Source: Chitinophaga ginsengisegetis (GTDB taxonomy: Bacteria; Bacteroidota; Bacteroidia; Chitinophagales; Chitinophagaceae). From it: a DNA stretch of 64,000 bases. Made by a program: the position numbers and the translations under genes. Numbering within the stretch: the stretch's first letter is position 1; every line of letters starts with the position of its first letter. The DNA lies in the NCBI RefSeq assembly GCF_900168065.1, contig NZ_FUZZ01000004.1:1-64000 (forward strand), in the 5' to 3' direction. Under the pieces are notes generated by a model, which worked only from the letters and a program-made list of their open reading frames with translations, was not told where the DNA came from and did no database searches. This document shows, piece by piece, positions 12,125-30,697 of the stretch.

Positions 12125-12126
12125 CG

Positions 12127-12200
12127 TGACCCCGTCAGGATTCAAACCTGAAACCTTCTGATCCGTAGTCAGATGCTCTATTCAATTGAGCTACGGAGCC
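12127..12200 (-). tRNA. tRNA-Arg (anticodon ACG)
   Basis: The minus strand folds as a complete 74-base cloverleaf. The acceptor stem is GGCTCCG/CGGGGTC, the D-stem GCTC/GAGC, the anticodon stem TCTGA/TCAGA with loop CTACGGA, and the T-stem TCAGG/CCTGA. The anticodon is ACG (Arg, CGN codons; A34 would be edited to inosine). CCA is not encoded. The D-loop has A at position 19 and the T-loop T at position 56, in place of the usual G19-C56 pair. It differs from the two tandem copies at 15690 and 15908. Confidence 0.95.
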
Positions 12201-15689: not shown

Positions 15690-15763
15690 GGCTTCATAGC
15701 TCAACTGAATAGAGCATTTGACTACGAATCAAAAGGTTTCTGGTTTGAATCCAGATGAGGTCA
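15690..15763 (+). tRNA. tRNA-Arg (anticodon ACG), tandem copy 1
   Basis: A complete 74-base cloverleaf: acceptor GGCTTCA/TGAGGTC, D-stem GCTC/GAGC, anticodon stem TTTGA/TCAAA with loop CTACGAA (anticodon ACG), T-stem TCTGG/CCAGA. Compared with the tRNA-Arg at 12127-12200 the stems differ by paired compensating changes, so it looks functional rather than decayed. CCA is not encoded. It shares the A19 and U56 elbow change. Its sequence is identical to copy 2. Confidence 0.95.
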
Positions 15764-15773
15764 CAAAAAGATA

Positions 15774-15907: not shown

Positions 15908-15981
15908 GGCTTCATAGCTCAACTGAATAGAGCATTTGACTACGAATCAAAAGGTTTCTGGTTTGAATCCAGATGAGGTCA
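15908..15981 (+). tRNA. tRNA-Arg (anticodon ACG), tandem copy 2
   Basis: This 74-base gene is identical over its whole length to the copy at 15690, with start points 218 bases apart. Its own promoter precedes it and a hairpin terminator follows. All stems are fully paired, the anticodon is ACG, and CCA is not encoded. Confidence 0.95.
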
Positions 15982-15987
15982 CCAACT

Positions 15988-18419: not shown

Positions 18420-20495
18420 TTATTTTTTTAATAAGGCCAGTGCATGTTCACAGATATTTTCTACCGTGAATCCAAACTCGCGTAATAACACTGGTCCCGG
18501 TGCGGATGCTCCAAAGTGGTCGATGGATATAATTTCGCCTTTGTCGCCCGCATAACGGTGCCAGCCCTGTGAAATGCCTGCTTCCACCACTATCCTGTTG
18601 GTGACGTCAGGAGGAAGTATCTGGTCGCGGTACGCCGGCGACTGCGCTTCAAACAATTCCCAGCTGGGCATGGATACGGTGCGCACCGCGATATTAAACG
18701 ATTGCAGTTTTTCCTGTGCGGCCACAATTAAATCCACTTCAGCGCCGGTGGCTATCAGGATCAGCTCAGGCTTTGCATCGGGCGCATCTGCGAGGATATA
18801 ACCGCCATAGCGCAGGCCATTTGCTGCGGCATATTTGCTGCGATCCAGCGTAGGCACCGCCTGGCGGGAGAGGATCAATGCAACCGGTTTGTCCGGTTCA
18901 AGTATAGCTATTTGCCACGCTGCAATGGTTTCATTGGCATCTGCCGGACGAATCACTACCAGGTGGGGTATGGCGCGAAGTGCGGCCAGCAGTTCCACCG
19001 GTTGGTGTGTGGGGCCATCTTCTCCCATCGCAATACTGTCGTGCGTAAAAACATAGATCACTTTCAGCTCTGAAAGTGCCGCCAGCCGGATGGATGGCCG
19101 CATATAATCTGAAAAAGTGAGGAAGGTGGCGCAATAGGGGATAATACCTCCATGTGCTGCCAAACCGTTGGAAATAGCGCCCATAGCGTGTTCACGCACA
19201 CCATACTGGATGTTCCTGCCGTCGTATCCCCATACGCCGCCGGCTGCGCCCTGGAGGTCGCCCTGCTTCATCGCCGGACTTTCAAAATTACCGGCATCCT
19301 TTAATTCAGTATTAGTGGAAGTATTGAGGTCCGCAGAGCCGCCGATGAAGCCGGGAAGGTGTTTAAAAAATGCCTGTATCACTTTACCGGAAGCAGCACG
19401 GGTGGCCAGTCCTTTAGGATCTGCCGGGAATGGAGTGATATCCTTATCCCAGTCTTCCGGAATATGATCATGTATCAGCGAACGTAATTCTTTTGCCAGC
19501 TCTGGGTATTTTTGTCCGTAGATGATCATTTGCTCTTCCCATTTGGAAGATAATGTTTTCCCAACGTCTACGGCTGCACGAAAATGATCCAGGGCTTCCG
19601 CAGGTTCTAAAAAATCCGGTGCTACCGGCCAGCCGAGTTTTTCTTTCGTCAGTTTTACATCTTCAGGCCCCAGCGGGGAACCATGCGCGCCGGTAGTATC
19701 CTGTTTCGGGGAACCAAAACCAATATGCGTGCGCACCAGGATGATAGAAGGCCGGTCTGTTTCCGCCTGTGCATTGCGGATCGCTTCATCAATGGCTTCC
19801 AGGTCGTTGCCGTCTGCTACTTTCTGGGTATGCCATCCATACGATTCAAACCGTTTGGCGTGATCTTCTGTAAAGGTAACCGGTGTGGCAGATGCCAGGG
19901 TAATCCGGTTATCATCGTATAAATAGATCAGCTTGCCGAGCCGTAAATGGCCGGCGAGGGAAGCGGCTTCGGAGGCTACGCCTTCCATCAGGTCGCCATC
20001 GCTTACCAGCGCATAGGTGTAGTGATCAATTACCGCATCACCCGGACGGTTATACTTTTCTGCCAGGTAGGCTTCCGCCATGGCAAGACCCACGCCATTG
20101 GCAAAGCCCTGTCCAAGCGGACCGGTAGTTACTTCCACGCCCGGCGCCAAACCCCGTTCGGGATGCCCCGGCGTTTTACTGCCCCATTGCCGGAACCGTT
20201 TCAGTTCTTCTAACGGTAAATCATACCCGGTAACATGCAGCAAACTATATAACAATGCAGACCCATGCCCGGCAGATAAAACAAACCGGTCGCGGTTAAA
20301 CCAGTGCGGATCTGAAGGGTTGTGACGCAGGAACCGGGTCCACAATACATAGGCCATCGGCGCCGCTCCCAATGGCAGCCCGGGATGTCCGCTGTCTGCT
20401 TTCTGCACGGCATCCACCGATAAGAAACGAAGCGTATTGATACATAGCTCATCCAACGCAGCAGGATTGGGAATAAGAGAAGTGTTGTTGGTCAT
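18420..20495 (-). CDS. tkt: Transketolase
   Basis: This 691-residue, full-length thiamine-diphosphate enzyme transfers two-carbon ketol units in the pentose phosphate pathway. Visible motifs are [20 protein letters not shown] at the N-terminus, the TPP/Mg motif [40 protein letters not shown], and in the pyrimidine domain [16 protein letters not shown] with the catalytic Glu, then [20 protein letters not shown]. The frame could begin at an ATG at 20528; the ATG at 20495 ([10 protein letters not shown]) is preferred by family length. It is probably co-transcribed with the HAD phosphatase. Confidence 0.96.
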
Positions 20496-20907
20496 GGTAT
20501 TCTTTTTTTGTAAAAGATGATCACACATAGGTCAACAAACTTCATGCGCAGAAGGTTGCCGTATTATTTTTTAATTAGTCTACTAAAATTATAGACTTTT
20601 CAAAAAATATTGTATTATTGTACTTCGTAGGCTTTCCGGGTCCGCTTTAGGGGAAATTCATCCACCTGTTGACATACCCCGTTTATCTTTCAAAAAATAC
20701 CGACATGGATATATCATTACACTTAATGAGGAAAATTTGCTGCGTGGAATATTCAGCAAACCGATGTTAGGAAGCATCAATCAGAAATAAAAAGGCCGGA
20801 ACTGTTGACGCAGTTCCGGCTGGTAATCAAGGCTGTTGGAGACATTTTACAGTGATGGCAGTTACCTGCTTTCACCGGCCTCATTTTTTCATACCAAAGT
20901 AAAGATA
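20496..20907. promoter_or_regulatory. Divergent tkt/susC regulatory region
   Basis: This region of 412 bases has no convincing gene. AGTCTA-N9-TAGACT (20577-20597) is an inverted repeat that also contains TAGT-CT-ACTA, the kind of site used by TetR or MarR repressors. A perfect 10-bp hairpin GCCGGAACTG/CAGTTCCGGC (20795-20820) is followed on the minus strand by CTTTTTATTTC. It would stop transcription entering tkt from the right. A 21-codon frame at 20705-20770 is probably chance. Confidence 0.5.
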
Positions 20908-23900
20908 ATGAAAATTGCTATTGCATGCAGCTGCGGGCTGCTGCTGGCGGCTACCGCATGGTCGCAGGAATTGCGCGCACCTCACAGCGCCGACACCACC
21001 AAACCTGCGCACAGGAACATCGTTCAAAACAACATTTCCCTTTCCGGACGAATTATCGACGCCAAATCACAACAACCTATCGCCGGCGCTATTGTACATA
21101 TCAAAGGCACCACCCATGAGGTGCAGAGCGGTACAAACGGGGAGTTCGCGTTTCTTACCGGTCAGAAAGTGCCGGTCATCTACCAGATCTCTTCCCTGGG
21201 TTATAAACTCAAAGAAGTATATGCCGATAAGTCCAATGCCGGCAACATCGCCCTGGAAGAGCTCAGTACACAACTGAACGACGTGGTGGTAGTAGGGTAT
21301 GGTACCCAGAAAAGAAGGGATCTTACCAGCGCCATTTCCTCCGTAAAAGGCAGCGACGTGGTAACCGTACCGGTAGCCAGCTTTGATGCACAGCTGCAGG
21401 GCAGGGCGGCCGGGGTGCAAATTAATTCGAATACCGGCGTTCCCGGCGATGGCGTGTTTGTAAGGGTACGCGGTACTACCTCCATCAACGCCGACAATGA
21501 TCCGCTATATATCATCGACGGCGTATTTATGAATAATTCCAGCCTGCAAACGGTAAACACCGGCGGCCGGTCCAGCTCCCCGCTGGCAGATATCAATCCT
21601 GCCGATATAGAAAATATAGAGGTATTGAAAGATGCCAGCGCAACAGCCATCTATGGCTCCCGGGGCGCCAACGGCGTGGTGATTGTTACTACCCGTCGCG
21701 GCAATTATAACAGTAAAGCCAAAGTAACTGCAGATGTATCGGCAGGCGTGGCCTGGGCGCCCAAAATGTGGGACCTCACCACGGGGCCGGAACATGCTAC
21801 GCTGGTCAATGAGTTTTACCGCAACTCCCTGGCAGATGCCACGGCCCTTAACGATAAGGCTGGCATCACCAAATACAGCTACCAGCCTTTCCGCGCGCTG
21901 AATGATAATCCGGATAAATCGCCTGCCCCGCGTGGACTGCCGCAGGATCAGCATACCTACGACCGCCTCGGGGAAATTTTCCAGACAGCCCCGCTCCAGA
22001 ATTATAACTTATCCCTTTCCGGTGGTAACCGCGAAACAAAGTATTATTTCGGTGGCGGCTACTCGAAGCAGGAGTCTATTCTCCGGCCCATTTCCTTTGA
22101 AAGGGCCAGCTTCAAACTGAATATCGATCAGCGCGTGAATGACAAGGTAACCATTGGTTCCAGCAACAGCTTCTCGCGTAGCTTCCGCAGCCAGGGCCGC
22201 GCAGGTGATGGTCCGCAGGGAGGTTTGTTACAGGCGGCCTTACATACGCCTACCTATCTCCCGGAAACAAATCCCGACGGTACACCCGCCCGGTGGGCAG
22301 GCTTTGATAACGTGCAGGTACTCATCGATAACTACGACGTACACACGACAAGCCTCCGTTATATCGGTAACCTTTACCTCGATGCCACACTGCTGCCGGA
22401 TCTGAAATTTCACAGTAATATCAGCATCGATTATAACAACTACAACGAATCCGAATACTGGAATAACCTCACCCAGCTGGGAGCCAGTCCCACCAACGGT
22501 TTGGCCACTTCCGCCATTACACAGAATACTTCCTGGATCAATGAACAAACACTTACCTGGCGCAAACATGCAGGAGAAAAACATTTCTTCGGCGTACTGG
22601 TAGGCAACACCATCCAGAGTAATACGGAAACATTAACGGCTGCACAGGGCACGGGTTTCCCTAACAATTCCTACAAATATATTTCCGCTGCTGCTACACG
22701 GACTGCTACGCAAACATGGACCCGCAGCACGTTGTCGTCTTTCTTCTCCAGGATCGATTATAACTACGCAGGTAAATATTATTTTGAAGCCAGCATCCGC
22801 GCAGATGGTTCTTCCAAGTTCGGCGACAACTATAAATGGGGGTATTTCCCTTCCGTCAGCGCCTCCTGGCGGCTCAAGGAAGAAAATTTCCTGAAGTCGG
22901 TGAACAGTATCAGCGATCTGAAAGTTCGCGCCAGCTACGGCATCACCGGGAATCAGTCCGGTATCAGCAACTTTGCGGCAAAAGGACTGTGGTCCGGTGG
23001 TGCAGGCTACCCCGACAACAGCACCGGCGATCAGCCAGGCACGGCGCCTTTGCAGCTGCCCAACCCCGACCTGCGCTGGGAAAAAACCAGTCAGCTCAAC
23101 GGCGGAGTGGACCTCGGATTATTCAATGGCCGTATCAATATCACCGCAGATGTATATTACAAATACACCAGCGATGTACTGCTGCAACTGCCTAAGGCAG
23201 GCGTTTCCGGCTTTACTTCTATCTATAGCAACGCCGGTGAAATCAGCAATAAAGGATATGAAATCGGGATCAATACTACCAATATCAGCACCCGTAATTT
23301 CACCTGGACCAGCAGCCTGAATATTGCCGGTAATACCAACCGTATTGAAAAACTGCCAACACCGATTTACCAGTATAACCGCGACTGGATCATTATGCAG
23401 GAAGGTTCACCCATGTATTCCTTCTGGCTGTACAACCAGCTGGGTGTGGATCCGCAAACCGGTAACGTAATCTTTGAAGGCGAGAAAGATGGTAAGCTTC
23501 CTGTGTCTGCGCGTAAGGTAATGGGTAACGCTATGCCCAAATTCTATGGTGGCTTCAGCAATACCGTTTCCTATAAAGGTTTTGATCTGAGCGTGCTGTT
23601 GTCATTTCAGTATGGCAACGATGTATATAACCTGAACAAATTTTTCGGAGAAGGAGGTGGCACCCGCGATGCCAACCGTGTACTGTTTGCCGATCAGCTG
23701 AACCGCTGGCAGAAACCCGGCGACATCACAAATGTACCGCGCCTCACCGCTTACGGTCTTAACTACACCATCGATCAGAACAACCGCTTCCTGGAAGATG
23801 GTTCCTTCCTGCGGCTCAAATCACTCACACTGGGATATACCATTCCCAAGTCTGTCAGCGAAAAACTGCATATCCAGTTGCTGCGTGTATACTTCACCGG

Positions 23901-24042
23901 TAGTAACCTCTGGTTGCTTACCAAATACACCGGGCTGGATCCTGAATCAAACGTAACCGGTATACAAACCGTACAGGGACTGGATCTTGGCACACCGCCG
24001 CAACCGCGCAGTGTACAGTTTGGCTTAAACGTAACTCTTTAA
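20908..24042 (+). CDS. SusC/RagA-family TonB-dependent outer-membrane transporter
   Basis: This 1044-residue protein has a signal peptide (MKIAIACSCGLLLAATAWSQ). A carboxypeptidase-regulatory-like domain follows (LSGRIIDAKSQQPIAGAIVH, about residues 45-125). The TonB-box/plug region is LNDVVVVGYGTQKRRDLTSA, with the SusC signature DPLYIIDGVFMN and VLKDASATAIYGSRGANGVV. The rest is a 22-strand-type barrel ending LGLDLGTPPQPRSVQFGLNV-like. There is no STN domain, so signalling to an anti-sigma factor is unlikely. It imports a ligand captured by SusD. It heads a six-gene operon, and neighbouring genes suggest a sulfur-containing substrate, which is inference. The ATG at 20908 is chosen over 20836 because it starts the signal peptide. 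Confidence 0.95.
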   Translation: MKIAIACSCGLLLAATAWSQELRAPHSADTTKPAHRNIVQNNISLSGRIIDAKSQQPIAGAIVHIKGTTHEVQSGTNGEFAFLTGQKVPVIYQISSLGYKLKEVYADKSNAGNIALEELSTQLNDVVVVGYGTQKRRDLTSAISSVKGSDVVTVPVASFDAQLQGRAAGVQINSNTGVPGDGVFVRVRGTTSINADNDPLYIIDGVFMNNSSLQTVNTGGRSSSPLADINPADIENIEVLKDASATAIYGSRGANGVVIVTTRRGNYNSKAKVTADVSAGVAWAPKMWDLTTGPEHATLVNEFYRNSLADATALNDKAGITKYSYQPFRALNDNPDKSPAPRGLPQDQHTYDRLGEIFQTAPLQNYNLSLSGGNRETKYYFGGGYSKQESILRPISFERASFKLNIDQRVNDKVTIGSSNSFSRSFRSQGRAGDGPQGGLLQAALHTPTYLPETNPDGTPARWAGFDNVQVLIDNYDVHTTSLRYIGNLYLDATLLPDLKFHSNISIDYNNYNESEYWNNLTQLGASPTNGLATSAITQNTSWINEQTLTWRKHAGEKHFFGVLVGNTIQSNTETLTAAQGTGFPNNSYKYISAAATRTATQTWTRSTLSSFFSRIDYNYAGKYYFEASIRADGSSKFGDNYKWGYFPSVSASWRLKEENFLKSVNSISDLKVRASYGITGNQSGISNFAAKGLWSGGAGYPDNSTGDQPGTAPLQLPNPDLRWEKTSQLNGGVDLGLFNGRINITADVYYKYTSDVLLQLPKAGVSGFTSIYSNAGEISNKGYEIGINTTNISTRNFTWTSSLNIAGNTNRIEKLPTPIYQYNRDWIIMQEGSPMYSFWLYNQLGVDPQTGNVIFEGEKDGKLPVSARKVMGNAMPKFYGGFSNTVSYKGFDLSVLLSFQYGNDVYNLNKFFGEGGGTRDANRVLFADQLNRWQKPGDITNVPRLTAYGLNYTIDQNNRFLEDGSFLRLKSLTLGYTIPKSVSEKLHIQLLRVYFTGSNLWLLTKYTGLDPESNVTGIQTVQGLDLGTPPQPRSVQFGLNVTL

Positions 24043-24061
24043 ACGCTCTTAATTCTCCTAT

Positions 24062-25423
24062 ATGAAAGCATATCGGAAATATATATCGCTCTTCTTTCTT
24101 TCGCTGACAGCTTTGTCATGCAAGAAATTTCTCGACGTGGAACCACGGGATAGTGTGTCTGATGAACAAACGATCATTGATAAAACGTCCGCCAATACTG
24201 CCTTGCGCGGCGTATATCGGAAGCTGGGCAGCGACGGCTACTACGGCGCTTTGTTCCAGACCTTCGGCTACCTGCCTGGCGACAATGTGCAGTGGACCGG
24301 CTCCCAGTCGGTTATTCAGCAGTTTATCACCCATAAAATAAATGCGGACAATGGCAACCTGCAAACTGTGTGGGCAGCTATTTACGCTACTATTAACGGC
24401 GCCAACAACGTGATTGCAAAAGTTCCCGGCTTGCAGGATGCTACGTTTTCTGCCACAGAAAAGAACCAGGCAGTGGGAGAGGCGTACTTTATCCGCGCCC
24501 TGAGCTACTTTGATCTCGCCCGCACCTGGGGAAATGTGCAGATAACGCTAACGCCTACACTCAATGCTTCCGATAAGCTGGATGTAAAAGGCAGCACACA
24601 GGCGCAGGTATACCAGCAGGTATTGAGCGATCTGAATGCGGCAGATTCCCTGCTGCAGCCGCCTTCTCAAACACCCAACCCGGTGAGGGTAAACCAGCAA
24701 ACCGCCTGGGCGCTGAAAGCGCGCTACTATTTGTACCAGTCTGATTGGGCGCAGGCAGAAGCCTATGCCACCAAAGTAATCAGCGATACCAGAAGTTATT
24801 CTTTGCTGAAGCCTTACAGCGCTTTCTTTTCACCGGCCAGCGCCATCGCTACAAAGGAATCAGTATTTGAGCTGTCGTACAGCGCTACTTACCTGAGTGG
24901 CCACCGCAACTACTGGCAGCCGCCCGCCAACGGCGGTACCCGGCAATGGGCGCCGTCGGACGCGTTTATCACGCTGGTAAATGATCCGAAAACAGGCGGC
25001 AACCGCAACGCGCTGGTTGCTAAAACCTCCGCCGGCCTGTGGTATGGTAACCTGTATTACAGAAGCCCCGCCACCGATCCTGCCTATGTTATCCGCATTG
25101 CTGAGCTGTACCTGATCCGCGCAGAAGCACGCGCCCAGCTGGGTAAAACGGACCTGGCCCGCGAAGATCTCAACAGCATCCGCGACAGGGCCGGGCTCAC
25201 ACCGGTGACGGAACTGATCGGAAAAGATGATCTGCTGCTGGCTATTGAAAATGAACGGAGAATAGAATTCGCACTGGAACCTCACCGATGGTTCGATCTG
25301 GTACGTACCAAACGCGCAGGCGCTGTTTTAAATATCACGAATCCTCAGCTATATGTATTTCCGATCCCGGCCAACGAAGTCACATTATCGAACGGCAATC
25401 TGAAACAAAATGATGGTTACTGA
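24062..25423 (+). CDS. SusD/RagB-family substrate-binding outer-membrane lipoprotein
   Basis: This 453-residue protein is a lipoprotein: the signal LFFLSLTALSC ends in a lipobox Cys at about residue 20, followed by KKFLDVEPRDSVSDEQ, the classic SusD opening. TPR-type helical segments (YFIRALSYFDLARTWGNVQ) and the C-terminal RAEARAQLGKTDLAREDLNS and ENERRIEFALEPHRWFDLVR complete the family pattern. It sits on the cell surface as the lid of the SusC barrel. It follows susC by 19 bases. Its binding specificity cannot be predicted from sequence. Confidence 0.95.
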   Translation: MKAYRKYISLFFLSLTALSCKKFLDVEPRDSVSDEQTIIDKTSANTALRGVYRKLGSDGYYGALFQTFGYLPGDNVQWTGSQSVIQQFITHKINADNGNLQTVWAAIYATINGANNVIAKVPGLQDATFSATEKNQAVGEAYFIRALSYFDLARTWGNVQITLTPTLNASDKLDVKGSTQAQVYQQVLSDLNAADSLLQPPSQTPNPVRVNQQTAWALKARYYLYQSDWAQAEAYATKVISDTRSYSLLKPYSAFFSPASAIATKESVFELSYSATYLSGHRNYWQPPANGGTRQWAPSDAFITLVNDPKTGGNRNALVAKTSAGLWYGNLYYRSPATDPAYVIRIAELYLIRAEARAQLGKTDLAREDLNSIRDRAGLTPVTELIGKDDLLLAIENERRIEFALEPHRWFDLVRTKRAGAVLNITNPQLYVFPIPANEVTLSNGNLKQNDGY

Positions 25424-25449
25424 TCTTATCACCTTATAACAAATCACCA

Positions 25450-26799
25450 ATGAGTAATGTCATAACCGCGGAAACTCCTGCCTGGAAAGACTATGAAAAG
25501 ATTGGGTTCAGGGTAATATTTATTTATTTCCTGTTGCAGGCGTTGCCGTTCGACTGGAAGTTTTACAGTTACCTTTTTTCTACTCCCATTTTTAACCTTC
25601 ATTATGAAGATATTTTTAACCTGGCCAACTTTACAACACGCTTTGGCGCGGGGCCTGCAACGTATGCCGACTGGGGCATACTGCTGATAATTGCAGTAGC
25701 CGGCGCTATCGTGTGGACTTACACCGACCGTCAACGGACACGCACCTACGACGAAGCCTTTTACTGGTTGCGCGTGATTCTCCGGTACCGGCTGGCGCTG
25801 GCATTGCTGGCCTATGGCTTCCTGAAGCTGTACGCGTTGCAGGCGCCCTATCCTTCGCTGAGCAGCCTCAATACACCGTATGGTGATTTTAACCGCTGGA
25901 AATTATTTTCACTGAGCCTGGGTATCGTACCTTCCTACGAACTGTTTCTCGGTGGCGTGGAAATCGGGTTAGCATTGCTGCTGCTGTTCCGCAAAACCGC
26001 TTCTATCGGCGCTTTCATGTTCCTCATCTTTTGCGGCAACATCTTCGTGTCCAACCTTGCATACGAAGGGGGCGACCAGGTATACAGCCTGTTACTGATC
26101 ACTTACGCTTTTGTTATCCTGAGCTTTGATCTGCAACGGATCATCCGCCTGCTCATTTTACAACAGCCCACAGCGGCGGCTACTTTTAAACCGGTGTTTG
26201 AAGGCATCCGGAAAAACGGCAGATGGATTTTGAAGACAGCCTTCCTGCTTTTCTTTGTGGTGATCTATGGTGTAAAAACAGGCGTGGGCGCCAAACACGA
26301 TCCTTACCAGTATCCCACCACCAAAGGATTACCGGCTATCAGCGGGTTATATAACGTGGCCACGTTTATTGTCAATGGCGACACACTCGCTTATTCTTTA
26401 ACGGATTCCCTTCGCTGGCGCAACGTGGTGTTTGAAGAATGGAATACGATCAGCATCCGCACTAACAAACCGGCACTGGTAGATTCCAATAATCTGCACC
26501 TGGTGAAACGGGATAATGCGGAACGGCTATACGAAATAGAAGGTACCAGCGGCCGGCATTACTACAGTTATGCAGCCGATACCACGCAACACCTGCTCAC
26601 GCTGCAAAACAGGCATCCCGCGTTGTCGGCGGAAACCTTGTCGCTGCACTATTCGCGGCCTGATACAAACCGGGTGATCCTCACAGGCACCACTTACAGC
26701 AGGGATTCTATCTATGTAGTACTGGAAAAAGTAAATAAAAAATACCTGTTGGAAGAAGTGGCAAACGGAGGGGGACGAAACAGGAAGTTAAAACTTTAA
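25450..26799 (+). CDS. DoxX-like polytopic membrane protein with C-terminal extracytoplasmic domain (paralogue 1)
   Basis: This 449-residue protein has about seven hydrophobic helices in residues 15-280. Included is the conserved block ILRYRLALALLAYGFLKLYA, then QAPYPSLSSLNTPYGDF, which resembles the GFxKL region of DoxX/DoxD-type proteins. Residues about 285-445 form a soluble, mostly beta domain (FIVNGDTLAYSLTDSLRWRN; YVVLEKVNKKYLL). The next gene encodes a clear paralogue. DoxD is the membrane subunit of archaeal thiosulfate:quinone oxidoreductase, so a role in sulfur-compound electron transfer fits the operon. Assignment to DoxX is by pattern only and should be read as tentative. Confidence 0.7.
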   Translation: MSNVITAETPAWKDYEKIGFRVIFIYFLLQALPFDWKFYSYLFSTPIFNLHYEDIFNLANFTTRFGAGPATYADWGILLIIAVAGAIVWTYTDRQRTRTYDEAFYWLRVILRYRLALALLAYGFLKLYALQAPYPSLSSLNTPYGDFNRWKLFSLSLGIVPSYELFLGGVEIGLALLLLFRKTASIGAFMFLIFCGNIFVSNLAYEGGDQVYSLLLITYAFVILSFDLQRIIRLLILQQPTAAATFKPVFEGIRKNGRWILKTAFLLFFVVIYGVKTGVGAKHDPYQYPTTKGLPAISGLYNVATFIVNGDTLAYSLTDSLRWRNVVFEEWNTISIRTNKPALVDSNNLHLVKRDNAERLYEIEGTSGRHYYSYAADTTQHLLTLQNRHPALSAETLSLHYSRPDTNRVILTGTTYSRDSIYVVLEKVNKKYLLEEVANGGGRNRKLKL

Positions 26800-26809
26800 A
26801 CCAATTATC

Positions 26810-28462
26810 ATGGCTCATAACACACAAACATTACCAGATGAACCCGTGATCAGGGACGCTGCTTCTGTGGCTATCAACGCACCGCTGTTGCAGCTGCCCG
26901 CCTGGAAAGAATATCAGCTGATATTATTCCGCATCGCTTTTATTTTTTTCATTGCGTTATCCGTTCCCAATAGTGTGGAGTGGTACCAGCAACTGGTGCA
27001 ACTGGATTGGGCACGGCTGAATTACCGCGACCTGTATGATATTGCGCGCTTTGGTTCCGGGATTAATTTTCTCGGCAACACCATCTTTGGCAGTTCCCTG
27101 CTGGGATATGCCAACTGGATCACCACAGCGTTGATAGCTACCGCCGGCGGCCTTGTATGGACCGGTATTGTAAAGGTCCGTAAACTGCCGCGGAAGGAAT
27201 ATTATACCGCATGGTACTGGCTGCGGGTAGTGGTAAGATACCGCGCCGGTATCGGCATCATCGGCTTTGGGTTTACGAAGCTGTTACCGGTACAGATGCC
27301 GTATCCATCTTTCGGAATTTTAAATACCAACTTTGGTGATCTTACTGCCCAGAAAATTTACTGGTTATCTATCGGCATTGTGCCCTGGTACCAGATCTTT
27401 GCGGGCGTGGTGGAAGTAGCGGCAGGCACGCTGTTATTTTTCCGTAAAACTACCACGCTGGGTTCCATTTTACTGTTCGCCGCGCTGGGAGATATTGTGT
27501 ACGTGAATTTTGCCTACGACGGCGGCGTACATGTATACAGCAGTTATTTCGTACTGCTGGCAGCGTTACTGCTGGTAAATGATGTCCCCAAAATTTATCG
27601 TTTGCTGGTACAGGAGCGGTTTACTGTGCCGGTGAATTATTATCCGGTTTTTCCGGAGAGATGGCAACGCTATACCCGCATAGGGCTGAAATCTGCTACC
27701 ATCTTCCTTTTCCTGGGAGTGCTTTTTTATTTGCAGCTGATTAACTTCCTGTATGATCCATACAAGCAACCATCCGTAGCGGGCGTAAAGGAGTTACGCG
27801 GTAACTACCAGGTAACGGAATTCCGGTTAAACGACCAGGTGATCCCGTATTCACCGGTAGATACGGTTCGCTGGCAGGAAGCCACGTTTGAGAACTGGTC
27901 TACTTTTACTTATCGCGTAAATAAACCGCATCCGCTCGATTTGTCGAATGGTGGCGGCGATCCGCAGCGTGATGTGAACCGCACCTTTGAAATAACGGGT
28001 CTTGCCGGTGGTCAGCGGGCTTTTCACTATTATGCCGATGAAGTAAATAAAGTGCTTTATCTCGAAGATAAATACAAACCCATTCCGGACAGGCGTAACC
28101 GCACTGCCGGTGTGGGCGGCGATGGCGGCGTGGTAGTGGATGTAGCTGCGGAAAAGGCCGCGCGTGAAGAGGCGGCCAAATCGGCGAAAGACTGGATCCC
28201 CGCAGCAGCGCGTAAAAATATTGGAGATGAATCACTCAAGATAGCACCCATTGCATTGTCTGCCCGAAGGGCGAAAGACTATGCCGCCGCACCTGCCTGG
28301 GAAAACAGGAAACGCTTTACTGTGAAATATTCCACCGGCGATGGTTCGCATGTAATACTCACCGGTGTGGATGAGAATAAGAATAGCATTTATGTAGTGC
28401 TGGACCGCATCGACAGGAAATACACATTGACGCCAAGCACTTTGCAGGCAGGAAAATATTAA
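26810..28462 (+). CDS. DoxX-like polytopic membrane protein with C-terminal extracytoplasmic domain (paralogue 2)
   Basis: This 550-residue paralogue of the preceding protein shares VRYRAGIGIIGFGFTKLLPV, then QMPYPSFGILNTNFGDL, and the GIVPWYQIFAGVVEV helix. The soluble C-terminal domain is alike (FRLNDQVIPYSPVDTVRWQE; YVVLDRIDRKYTL) but is interrupted by about 90 extra residues rich in Gly, Ala, Lys and Arg (GVGGDGGVVVDVAAEKAARE). These extra residues may be a flexible linker. The gene lies 10 bases after paralogue 1 and 8 bases before the cytochrome gene, so co-translation is likely. Two adjacent, diverged copies suggest a heterodimer. Confidence 0.7.
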   Translation: MAHNTQTLPDEPVIRDAASVAINAPLLQLPAWKEYQLILFRIAFIFFIALSVPNSVEWYQQLVQLDWARLNYRDLYDIARFGSGINFLGNTIFGSSLLGYANWITTALIATAGGLVWTGIVKVRKLPRKEYYTAWYWLRVVVRYRAGIGIIGFGFTKLLPVQMPYPSFGILNTNFGDLTAQKIYWLSIGIVPWYQIFAGVVEVAAGTLLFFRKTTTLGSILLFAALGDIVYVNFAYDGGVHVYSSYFVLLAALLLVNDVPKIYRLLVQERFTVPVNYYPVFPERWQRYTRIGLKSATIFLFLGVLFYLQLINFLYDPYKQPSVAGVKELRGNYQVTEFRLNDQVIPYSPVDTVRWQEATFENWSTFTYRVNKPHPLDLSNGGGDPQRDVNRTFEITGLAGGQRAFHYYADEVNKVLYLEDKYKPIPDRRNRTAGVGGDGGVVVDVAAEKAAREEAAKSAKDWIPAAARKNIGDESLKIAPIALSARRAKDYAAAPAWENRKRFTVKYSTGDGSHVILTGVDENKNSIYVVLDRIDRKYTLTPSTLQAGKY

Positions 28463-28470
28463 GCAGTACT

Positions 28471-29037
28471 ATGTTTATAAAACGAACCAACTGTTACCGG
28501 GCGGCCGTTGTAATGGTGTTGGGTATGCTGGCTTGCCATACCAACACCCGGCCACCGGTACCAGGTTGGCCGGAACATTTCGGATTTGGAAAAACAGCCA
28601 CCCGCAGGCAAATCGATTCACTGAACATCTCCATTGCCCCCGATGGCAAAGGATTGCCCGCCGGCAGCGGCAATGCGGCAGCAGGCCGGGTTATTTACCT
28701 GGCAAAATGCGCTTCCTGTCATGGTGAAACCGGCGCAGAGCCCACACCAAACCGGCTGGTGGCCACGCTCAGCGATACGGTGCGCACAAAAACGATCGGT
28801 AACTACTGGCCTTACGCCACCACGGTATTTGATTATATCCGCCGCGCTATGCCCTTTAATGCACCGGGATCGCTCACAAATGAAGAGGTGTATAGTCTTA
28901 CTGCTTTCCTGCTGTACCGCAACAATATCATTGACAGCACCCTGCAGCTGGATGCCGTGAAGCTGCCAAACATTGTGATGCCGGCGAAAAAATATTATGT
29001 GAATGACGATCGTCGCGGTGGTAATGAAATAAAATGA
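28471..29037 (+). CDS. c-type cytochrome, SoxD-like
   Basis: This 188-residue monoheme cytochrome c has a hydrophobic N-terminus ending GMLAC at Cys22, a possible lipobox, so it may be a periplasm-facing lipoprotein. The heme motif CASCH is at 80-84. The distal Met is probably Met127 in YIRRAMPFNAPGSL. The block WPYATTVFDYIRRAMPFNAP is the hallmark of SoxD-type cytochromes that accept electrons from the SoxC molybdenum subunit. SoxD proper often has two hemes; only one is present here. The stop codon overlaps the start of the next gene (ATGA), pointing to a tight functional pair. Confidence 0.88.
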   Translation: MFIKRTNCYRAAVVMVLGMLACHTNTRPPVPGWPEHFGFGKTATRRQIDSLNISIAPDGKGLPAGSGNAAAGRVIYLAKCASCHGETGAEPTPNRLVATLSDTVRTKTIGNYWPYATTVFDYIRRAMPFNAPGSLTNEEVYSLTAFLLYRNNIIDSTLQLDAVKLPNIVMPAKKYYVNDDRRGGNEIK

Positions 29038-30281
29038 ATATTATGTCAGGCGAAGATAAAAAGATACCAAGAAGAACGATACTGAGAGCAGTGGCAGTTT
29101 CTGCTGCTGCGGCATTAATGGGCGCTTCCAGGGTGCAGCGTGGCACAGATACTACCGCCACAGGAAAAGACACTACCTATATTGATCCTACCAAAATCAC
29201 GGGTACACTTCCCGGAAAACTGGGCACCCGATCCCCATTTGAGCAGCCGGTAAAAAAGCCCTCTGATATTTCCTCCCGCACACCGTTGCAGGACCTGTAT
29301 GGCATTATCACCCCGTCGGATCTTCATTTTGAAAGAAGTCATGCCGGCGTGCCGCTTATCCATCCTGATAAATACGAGTTGCTGATTCACGGGATGGTGG
29401 ATCGGCCTATGATCTTTACCTTGCGCGATTTAAAGCGTTTTCCGGCGGCATCCCGTATCGCCTTTATCGAGTGCTCAGGCAACTTCAGATCGGGCAAGGA
29501 AACCATGACGCCGCAGGAAATTTGTGGACTCACCAGTCAGAGTGAATGGACCGGTGTAATGCTGTCCACTCTTTTCCGCGAAGTAGGCGTGCATCCAAAG
29601 GCCACCTGGTTCCTGGCAGAAGGCTCTGATGCCGCGGTGATGACCCGCAGTATCCCCGTGGAAAAGGGCTGGAAAGACGCTATGATCGCCTACGGGCAGA
29701 ATGGAGAGGCGATCCGCCCGGAGCAGGGTTATCCTGCGCGGTTATTTCTGCCGGGATGGGAGGGGAATACCAATGTGAAATGGATCCGGCGTATTGAATT
29801 ATCGGACCAGCCCTTTATGACGCGGGAGGAAACGTCCAAATACACGGAAACCATCCGGGATCATAAGATCCGGCAGTTCAGCTTCGACATGGATGCCCGT
29901 TCTATCATCACCTATCCGTCGTTTCCGCAGCAAGTGGAAAAGGGCTGGATAGAAATCAGAGGCATCGCATGGAGTGGCCGCGGAAAAATTGATAGCGTGG
30001 AAATCAGTACTGATGCGGGGAAGCACTGGACCAAAGCGGTATTGCAGGAGCCGGTAATGGACAAAGCACATACATATTTCCGTCATCTCTGGTATTGGGA
30101 CGGGCAACCCACAGAGATCATGAGCCTTGCGGTAGATGACACCGGCTATCGTCAGCCAACATTAAAACAACTGATCCAGGCGCGTGGTACAGACATGGGC
30201 GGGTATCATGTGAACCCGGTTACCGCATGGGTGCTGAAGAGAGATGGCACCGTGTTGTTCAAGCCGGAAAAATGGAAGTGA
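29034..30281 (+). CDS. SoxC-like molybdenum sulfite/sulfur dehydrogenase
   Basis: This 415-residue protein carries a twin-arginine signal (PRRTILRAVAVSAAAALMG), so it is exported folded to the periplasm. The sulfite-oxidase fold is clear. LHFERSHAGVPLIHPDKYEL is followed by RIAFIECSGNFRSG, where Cys147 would ligate molybdenum. PARLFLPGWEGNTNVKWIRR and a C-terminal dimerisation domain (about 300-410; IEIRGIAWSGRGKIDSVEIS) follow. It oxidises sulfite or protein-bound sulfane sulfur and reduces the partner cytochrome encoded just upstream. No soxXYZAB genes are present, so a free sulfite dehydrogenase is more likely than a full Sox system. The alternative start at 29043 is possible. Confidence 0.9.
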   Translation: MNIMSGEDKKIPRRTILRAVAVSAAAALMGASRVQRGTDTTATGKDTTYIDPTKITGTLPGKLGTRSPFEQPVKKPSDISSRTPLQDLYGIITPSDLHFERSHAGVPLIHPDKYELLIHGMVDRPMIFTLRDLKRFPAASRIAFIECSGNFRSGKETMTPQEICGLTSQSEWTGVMLSTLFREVGVHPKATWFLAEGSDAAVMTRSIPVEKGWKDAMIAYGQNGEAIRPEQGYPARLFLPGWEGNTNVKWIRRIELSDQPFMTREETSKYTETIRDHKIRQFSFDMDARSIITYPSFPQQVEKGWIEIRGIAWSGRGKIDSVEISTDAGKHWTKAVLQEPVMDKAHTYFRHLWYWDGQPTEIMSLAVDDTGYRQPTLKQLIQARGTDMGGYHVNPVTAWVLKRDGTVLFKPEKWK

Positions 30282-30283
30282 TC

Positions 30284-30697
30284 TTACTCAAATAAGGTAA
30301 GTTCATCGCGGGTAACTGCATGAAAAAGATTTTGCAGCTGGTGTACATGTACAATGGCGCGGCCGTAGGGTACCAGTCCTTCTGCGGCGTCTGTAAGCGG
30401 CTGGAATACTTCGTTTTCGTGCCTGATATGCACGCTGTGCAGCCGGTTATATTTCAGGGAATATACATTTACATCTTCGCCGTAGTCGGGATCTCCTTTG
30501 ATAAAGCCAAATCTCAGCAGGAGGTCCACATCCAGCACCATCGGGTTTACTTTTGCATAGGGAAGTTTGCTGAGCGGCAGTCCTGAATTATACACAAAAC
30601 CCTGCAAAATGCCTTCTACTACAAAGGCTGTTTCTTCCATGTTATAATCAAAGTAGGATACATAGTTGCCTATCCTTATGTCTGATTCTTCTATCAT
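30284..30697 (-). CDS. Uncharacterised protein with HQLQNLF-type C-terminus
   Basis: This 137-residue soluble protein begins MIEESDIRIGNYVSYFD and ends VHVHQLQNLFHAVTRDELTL. The pairing of an N-terminal IGNxV and a C-terminal HQLQNLxxAxTxxEL resembles a widespread Bacteroidota family of unknown role that is frequent in prophages and mobile elements. No phage genes lie nearby. It converges on the SoxC-like gene with 2 bases between the stops. The function is unknown. Confidence 0.75.
   Translation of the reverse strand: MIEESDIRIGNYVSYFDYNMEETAFVVEGILQGFVYNSGLPLSKLPYAKVNPMVLDVDLLLRFGFIKGDPDYGEDVNVYSLKYNRLHSVHIRHENEVFQPLTDAAEGLVPYGRAIVHVHQLQNLFHAVTRDELTLFE

Follow-up and report, generated by a model that had tools for sequence, protein, structure and literature searches.

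The window analysed here comprises the first 64,000 nucleotides of contig NZ_FUZZ01000004.1 of Chitinophaga ginsengisegetis (NCBI RefSeq assembly GCF_900168065.1). It carries a six-gene operon in which a SusCD outer-membrane transporter is joined to two related membrane proteins, a SoxD-like cytochrome and a SoxC-type molybdenum enzyme. We propose, with a probability that we put at roughly one half, that this operon represents the larger half of a unit for sulfur scavenging and oxidation in Bacteroidota, in which sulfite would be oxidised to sulfate. The unit brings known parts together in a new way and adds one protein pair that is uncharacterised.

All six open reading frames (ORFs) were confirmed on the forward strand at the positions given in an earlier reading, made without database searches (the sequence-only reading), with successive gaps of 19, 26, 10, 8 and -4 bases. 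The genes are co-directional and not "fused", as that reading had worded it. The features of the operon are as follows:

20908..24042, forward: SusC/RagA-type TonB-dependent outer-membrane transporter, 1044 amino acids (aa) (TIGR04056; solved SusC homologues and RagA)
24062..25423, forward: SusD/RagB-type surface lipoprotein, 453 aa (PF07980, PF14322; solved SusD homologues)
25450..26799, forward: membrane protein A, 449 aa, about seven helices followed by a lipocalin-like barrel (AlphaFold2 model, fold matches)
26810..28462, forward: membrane protein B, 550 aa, tandem paralogue of A (36% identity to A, alignments)
28471..29037, forward: SoxD-like monoheme cytochrome c, 188 aa, probable lipoprotein in this genome (PF13442, PF00034, 2xts_B)
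29034..30281, forward: SoxC-type molybdenum oxidoreductase, 415 aa, with a twin-arginine N-terminus, Cys147 and Arg152 (TIGR04555, 2xts_A)
20577..20597, strand not applicable: putative operator AGTCTACTAAAATTATAGACT, a palindrome before susC (conserved in this position in related genera)

Linkage of the six genes in related genomes

A contig search with membrane protein B yielded 48 related loci from Chitinophaga, Niastella, Longitalea, Pedobacter, Mucilaginibacter, Spirosoma, Fibrella, Pontibacter and other genera. The tandem membrane pair is present in 47 of them and SoxC in 41; SoxD was detected in 40 by ORF clustering and in a 41st locus (L035) by tblastn. A full SusC ORF was found in 43 loci and SusD in 45, the remaining loci ending at a contig edge at that point; the 43 include L060, a contig of 3.75 kilobases (kb) that starts inside protein B and carries a distant SusC. 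Linkage is kept while gene order shuffles: SusCD follows SoxC in L076 and the membrane pair in L022, and genes for a flavin adenine dinucleotide (FAD) oxidoreductase and a YeiH-type transporter precede SoxD in L081, as the FAD gene does in L055. The sequence-only reading had called for a search for the same arrangement in other Bacteroidota, and had named relatives consistently devoid of SusCD or of the DoxX-like genes as a refuting case; the arrangement recurs in several genera, and in all 48 loci the SusCD genes are either present or cut off by the contig end. Three counter-cases were seen, L072 with SusCD and SoxDC and no membrane pair, L142 with the membrane pair and no SusCD, and G254, where SoxDC stands by itself on a short contig (see below).

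In a draw of 294 genomes of the family (SoxC accepted at E <= 1e-60; protein B orthologues above 560 bits, the next genome scoring 312), SoxC occurs in 12 genomes (once as a fragment), the protein B orthologue in 16 and both in 11. Fisher's test for this co-occurrence gives p ~2e-15, related genomes not being independent; nor are these genomes independent of the 48 loci, with which they partly overlap (100% matches: L016/L075, L019/L082, L021/L083, L057/L080 and L022/L141). SusCD, the membrane pair and SoxDC lie in one cluster in all 11 co-carrying genomes, that of the window included, and a chance neighbourhood was rejected on this count. Protein B is read with one internal stop in G640 and with two in G452. 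The 12th SoxC-bearing genome (G669, L085) holds a 171-aa piece of SoxC adjoining the FAD gene, the rest of the unit being absent from the 19-kb stretch, and this piece looks like a decaying copy. The unit is patchy in the phylum, since only three (G000, G300, G254) of the 12 matches at E <= 1e-30 in a draw of 395 genomes are SoxC-type; the other nine, sulfite-oxidase-like at 107-135 bits, were not counted as SoxC.

In comparison with a Chitinophaga polysaccharea contig (L015), all six genes are under purifying selection, with ratios of non-synonymous to synonymous substitution (dN/dS) of 0.024, 0.032, 0.053, 0.066, 0.120 and 0.037 in gene order. These low ratios and the recurrence of the arrangement in other genera indicate that the arrangement is more than chance.

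The identities of the two transporter genes, as proposed by the sequence-only reading, held. SusC scores 810.5 bits with TIGR04056 (cut-off 368) and, among solved chains, lies closest to SusC homologues and RagA, while SusD exceeds the gathering thresholds of both PF07980 and PF14322 and is nearest to solved SusD homologues; together with the adjacency of the two genes, this defines a SusCD transporter. Such pairs are usually taken as importers of glycans or peptides. Comparison with the nearest solved structures was not informative as to the substrate, and the Pfam and NCBIfam models revealed no carbohydrate-active enzyme among the six genes, as would be expected of a polysaccharide utilisation locus; in agreement with the earlier statement, glycoside hydrolases, sulfatases and soxXYZAB genes are absent from the operon. 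In L037, L040 and L043, a second, distant SusCD pair, a tetratricopeptide repeat protein and a DUF1684 protein are located between the membrane pair and SoxD.

The molybdenum enzyme, its cytochrome and the membrane pair

The SoxC-like enzyme passes the SoxC equivalog model TIGR04555 (467.6 bits, cut-off 420) and finds its best Protein Data Bank (PDB) match in 2xts_A (E 1.2e-83). The sole PDB match of the SoxD-like protein is 2xts_B (E 6e-31), so the two proteins match two chains of one entry, which we take to be SoxCD of Paracoccus; around the molybdenum-ligand cysteine, 2xts agrees with SoxC of a Paracoccus sox operon (L074). A twin arginine at positions 13-14 is found in 42/42 SoxC homologues, in line with the earlier description of a SoxC-like enzyme exported by twin-arginine translocation. 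The ligand cysteine (Cys147 in the window protein) is kept in 51/51 SoxC sequences. The SoxD-like protein exceeds the gathering thresholds of two cytochrome c domains (PF13442 and PF00034) and has a single CxxCH motif, which is kept in 41/41 homologues, and so its description as a monoheme cytochrome likewise stood; loss of the cysteine or of the heme motif in relatives, both named beforehand as refuting, was not seen. From its sequence, the cytochrome is a probable lipoprotein in the genome of the window (a strict lipobox pattern occurs in 18/41 homologues).

The residue five positions after the ligand cysteine separates the SoxC proteins. It is an arginine (Arg152 in the window protein) in all 39 full-length SoxC of Bacteroidota, in L072 and in all nine controls of the sulfite-oxidase-like type, and in none of the 11 other SoxC, three of which belong to sox operons; an alignment of SorA places its arginine at the same position. 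SoxC proteins shorter than 350 aa (3/42) were excluded from this count and from the tree described below, and all 42 bear the arginine. In sulfite oxidases this residue binds the oxyanion. With both the ligand cysteine and this arginine, the enzyme falls among sulfite oxidases and dehydrogenases in the wide sense, and remains far below the SorA and SorT models (NF052245, 119.4 bits against a cut-off of 600; NF052247, 110.5 against 570). The arginine is not required for membership of TIGR04555, because eight other SoxC-cytochrome pairs lack it. In a tree rooted with the nine sulfite-oxidase-like proteins, in which the SoxC of some loci were not placed, the 39 Bacteroidota SoxC and L072 form one group (support 0.877) and the three sox-operon SoxC stand apart from it (support 1.0).

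A search of the genome of the window for SoxY (PF13501) gave no match, and detected this protein in both sox-bearing plasmids used as controls; SoxX, Z, A and B were not sought. Membership of the Sox pathway was rejected because of this absence. The genome contains moaA. The arginine, the absence of SoxY and the single heme motif together lead us to read the enzyme as, most probably, a sulfite dehydrogenase of the SoxC type with a monoheme cytochrome, which fits better than the "sulfur dehydrogenase" of the sequence-only reading.

No Pfam or NCBIfam model names membrane proteins A and B, two paralogues that share 36% identity. A PDB sequence search with protein B gave no usable match, and a PDB profile search gave E-values of 0.5 or worse. 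Among 39 family members, Pfam MauE touches 11 (best E 0.0075, below any cut-off shown) and Pfam DoxX one (E 0.06); neither window protein reaches the gathering cut-off of DoxX or MauE, and no DoxD or DoxA model is among the profile hits listed for the pair. The AlphaFold2 model of protein A (mean per-residue confidence, pLDDT, 82.1) comprises about seven helices (residues 14-283) and a barrel (residues 294-429), which matches both lipocalins and designed barrels (Z up to 9.7 over ~90-105 residues). As the barrel filled the fold search made with the whole protein, the helical part was folded separately. Its best match, for helices 101-229, is NACHO/TMEM35A (Z 7.7, root-mean-square deviation 3.1, 115 residues), a weak score for helical folds; the next row has Z 5.7 and is followed by vitamin K carboxylase and VKOR-like rows, and Foldseek finds vitamin K carboxylase as its best match (E 0.088). 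Given that TMEM35A presumably has a DoxX-type fold, protein A possibly contains a DoxX/MauE-like four-helix core. The "DoxX-like" label is therefore plausible, not proven, the indirect signs for it being the weak profile signal and the fold match. Loop charges and the positive-inside rule suggest a cytoplasmic N-terminus and a periplasmic barrel.

A second half-operon, accessory genes and a common palindrome

The FAD oxidoreductase is encoded in 34/48 loci and a PF03601/YeiH-type transporter in 27/48. In the genome of the window these genes are not beside SoxC; they are adjacent to each other on contig C7 (L092, 8794-11494, reverse strand), and for this reason the unit seems to be split there into two halves. 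The YeiH-type protein of L044 passes Pfam PF03601 (153.5 bits, cut-off 24.5); the FAD protein stays under every NCBIfam cut-off and comes closest to the CrtO model, far under threshold. In Salmonella, YeiH is the main factor of sulfite resistance, with a transport function that is suggested and not shown (PMC12880088).

Fifteen family loci (L141-L155; L145 and L155 come from one genome, and L141 is L022) hold the pair and lack SoxC (at E <= 1e-60), and 14 of them keep SusCD. Five (L146, L147, L148, L150, L155) encode a metallo-beta-lactamase/rhodanese protein adjoined by a secreted-looking protein whose LCGC motif is conserved in 5/5. The former passes the Pfam cut-offs for rhodanese and metallo-beta-lactamase and no NCBIfam cut-off, has 3tp9 and 3r2u as matches across most of its length, with BpPRF and ETHE1 ranking lower, and has a twin-arginine-like start in four of the five cases, which makes it a putative exported persulfide-dioxygenase/rhodanese. 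Proteins of this kind are not special to SoxC-less loci, since the genome of the window has homologues elsewhere (48% identity on contig C9, 32% and 32%); no homologue of the metallo-beta-lactamase/rhodanese protein or of the LCGC protein turned up in the ORFs from the 48 loci and from window positions 12001-38000. L072 (Spirosoma oryzicola) has in one row SusCD, an amidohydrolase, an SsuD-like monooxygenase (246.6 bits, below the cut-off of 518), a permease, SoxD and SoxC, and a gene of the O-acetylhomoserine sulfhydrylase type is located between SusD and protein A in L040 and L043. Judged by these similarities, the view that the accessory genes of relatives (PF03601/YeiH-type, persulfide-dioxygenase/rhodanese, O-acetylhomoserine sulfhydrylase, SsuD-like) point to sulfur is well supported.

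Both half-operons in the genome of the window are preceded by a palindrome with the consensus AGTCTAY-N7-RTAGACT, which lies, with one mismatch, 47 base pairs (bp) before the FAD-YeiH pair (L092, 11542-11562). The pattern WGTCTAYN7RTAGACW occurs at nine places in this genome, against one for the reversed control, and at seven places against none in G558. When relatives were scanned 600 bp upstream with up to two mismatches, the palindrome was found at 26/40 testable operons (exactly at nine) and at 28/255 control genes taken from these loci, some of them bordering the same intergenic stretch. In L076, where protein A is the first gene, it stands before that gene, and in L077-L079 it precedes the YeiH-type gene. 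We regard it as a putative operator through which both half-operons may be co-regulated. The sequence-only reading saw no dedicated regulator in the operon, and this conserved palindrome is a sign of dedicated regulation; a literature search for its regulator turned up no paper to the point by title. Other neighbours of the palindrome in the two genomes include a TlpA-like gene (named by eye). An O-acetylhomoserine sulfhydrylase gene (also by eye) stands beside a copy at ~68.5 kb of G000:C5 (L189, 5165-6532, reverse strand), beyond the window.

The operon is bounded on both sides, by a divergent gene upstream (18420-20528, reverse strand, a transketolase by eye) and by a convergent one downstream (30284-30697, reverse strand), whose stop end lies two bases past the SoxC stop. 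An alternative in-frame TTG start for SusC exists at 20836, the ATG at 20908 being the likelier start. No RNA element was found upstream of the operon; at the gathering threshold, positions 12000-33000 contain only three transfer RNA genes, all tRNA-Arg with the same anticodon (acg) and within 4 kb (12126-12200, 15690-15764 and 15908-15984).

Proposed route, alternatives and known systems

In the route that we favour, SusCD would capture a sulfur compound, probably organic, at the cell surface and carry it to the periplasm. Sulfite would be freed during breakdown of this compound, either in the cytoplasm, with subsequent export by the YeiH-type transporter, or directly in the periplasm, and the SoxC-type enzyme would oxidise it to sulfate, the likeliest reaction for SoxCD. 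The SoxD-like cytochrome, with its one heme, would take up electrons from the enzyme and feed them into the respiratory chain. The membrane pair would probably act as a relay between periplasm and membrane for electrons or a sulfur intermediate; this role and the nature of the imported compound are guesses, while sulfite as the substrate of SoxC, the YeiH-type protein as its exporter, the direction of flow and co-regulation are what we infer. Of the module of SusCD, membrane pair and SoxCD drawn by the sequence-only reading, the conserved linkage stood, reinforced by the sulfur-related accessory genes, and the function of SoxCD was revised; sulfur import by SusCD, a membrane pair working like thiosulfate:quinone oxidoreductase and the electron acceptor are hypothetical parts of it. 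In favour of the route we count the SoxC model score and the 2xts matches, the arginine, the missing SoxY, the presence of moaA, the PF03601/YeiH-type and FAD genes with their palindrome, the part played by YeiH in Salmonella, the gene row of L072, the sulfonate-type neighbours of three SoxC-cytochrome pairs from outside Bacteroidota, the persulfide-dioxygenase/rhodanese-like protein of five SoxC-less relatives and the O-acetylhomoserine sulfhydrylase gene beside a copy of the palindrome.

Several observations weigh against this route. No result here gives SusCD a sulfur ligand, and no sulfite-releasing enzyme is encoded in the window operon. An S51 peptidase, scoring below the cyanophycinase cut-off, is present in 26/48 loci (in L051 on the other strand) and suggests a peptide-like substrate. 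The YeiH-type proteins fall far under the NCBIfam YeiH cut-off (TIGR00698, 232.6 bits; L044 76.3, L092 98.3), so that a role as sulfite exporter would be a long step from their sequence. On its 6.4-kb contig, G254 (L086) shows SoxDC with neither SusCD nor the pair. The palindrome is missing from 14/40 testable operons (ten Spirosoma/Fibrella-type loci, L023, L024, L030 and L034), and it also stands beside SusCD/TonB receptor, YitT-type and phytanoyl-CoA dioxygenase genes (by eye) that are not plainly linked to sulfur. Finally, 6/47 loci (L060 left out) keep the pair and lack SoxC, which is therefore not the core of the unit.

A broader reading, which we advance only tentatively, takes SusC, SusD and the pair, seen as DoxX/MauE-like proteins with lipocalin domains, as the constant core of an undescribed Bacteroidota system that takes up sulfur compounds at the surface. 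The SoxCD sulfite dehydrogenase, the exported persulfide dioxygenase-rhodanese and the YeiH-type exporter would be its swappable oxidation modules, run from one operator, and the pair would be a new transfer protein moving sulfur or electrons in the periplasm.

It is rather unlikely that SoxCD serves only periplasmic sulfite detoxification or energy saving, with SusCD and the pair devoted to some nutrient unrelated to this task, for instance a peptide, and linked to SoxCD through a common regulator. The occurrence of SusCD and the pair without SoxC (in 14/15 SoxC-less family loci and in L022, L033, L038, L039 and L051) would fit such an arrangement, as would the S51 peptidase and the SoxDC genes standing alone in view in G254. 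Against this, the six genes are linked in every co-carrying genome despite the shuffled order of L076 and L081, sulfur-related genes of other kinds (persulfide-dioxygenase/rhodanese-like, YeiH-type) are present in some of the SoxC-less loci, and L072 keeps SusCD beside SoxDC together with an SsuD-like enzyme.

We consider it improbable that SoxCD is a sulfane dehydrogenase acting on protein-bound or low-molecular sulfane sulfur, with another carrier in place of SoxYZ. The overall similarity to SoxC, the LCGC protein of the five SoxC-less relatives, whose neighbour suggests that the same system may handle sulfane sulfur, and the homologue of that neighbour on contig C9 are outweighed in our view by the lack of SoxY (the one Sox protein sought), the absence of both proteins from the 48 loci and window 12001-38000, Arg152, which is typical of sulfite oxidases, and the single heme motif. 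There is similarly little chance that SusCD and the pair are a core capturing a cofactor or hydrophobic ligand, with the redox enzymes as swappable cargo: SusC-SusD-pair is the most constant part of the loci and the barrel resembles ligand-binding lipocalins, but fold alone gives no function, the accessory genes are biased to sulfur, and none of four single-copy distant pair homologues (L156-L159) has this SusCD alongside (L157 and L159 have distant SusC-type genes further off).

If the sulfite-oxidising route is correct, a path by which a sulfur compound captured at the surface ends as sulfate has gone unrecognised in the genomes of Chitinophaga, Niastella, Pedobacter, Mucilaginibacter and Spirosoma, and the SoxC-type enzyme of these genera should be annotated as a sulfite dehydrogenase. 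To our knowledge, accounts of sulfur oxidisers seldom include heterotrophic soil Bacteroidota, and sulfur feeding is not usually associated with SusCD importers; in this route, moreover, the substrate sulfite is toxic. Our literature search turned up no paper joining SusCD with sulfite dehydrogenase, or with DoxX and sulfur, in Bacteroidetes. The common palindrome and gene set make the proposal directly testable.

Each part of the unit recalls a known system. Like polysaccharide or peptide utilisation loci, the operon is headed by a SusCD pair, which here accompanies redox enzymes in place of a glycoside hydrolase or sulfatase. The membrane pair recalls the DoxDA thiosulfate:quinone oxidoreductase and other DoxX/MauE proteins in its weak profile signal and possible four-helix core, and differs in consisting of tandem paralogues that bear lipocalin-like domains. 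With SoxCD sulfane dehydrogenase of the Sox pathway (Paracoccus, 2xts) the operon shares the SoxC model, the two-chain PDB matches and the molybdenum-ligand cysteine; it is set apart by the arginine, the single heme motif and the absence of soxXYZAB from the operon and of SoxY from the genome, and its SoxC is 39-41% identical to those of three sox operons. In comparison with the SorAB and SorT sulfite dehydrogenases, the cysteine and arginine are as in SorA, and the scores lie far under both models; SorAB has a cytochrome c partner, and SoxC here also adjoins a cytochrome. Pairs of a SoxC-type enzyme and a small cytochrome c outside sox operons are found in Methylobacterium, Paraburkholderia, Paracoccus, Caballeronia and others. 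In the fetched stretches these have neither SusCD nor the membrane pair, the arginine is absent in 8/8, and their SoxC is 43-52% identical to that of the operon. Of these eight non-Bacteroidota pairs, all of them with no soxXYZAB in the fetched stretch, three lie near parts of ATP-binding cassette transporters of the sulfonate type, one of them with luciferase-like monooxygenases.

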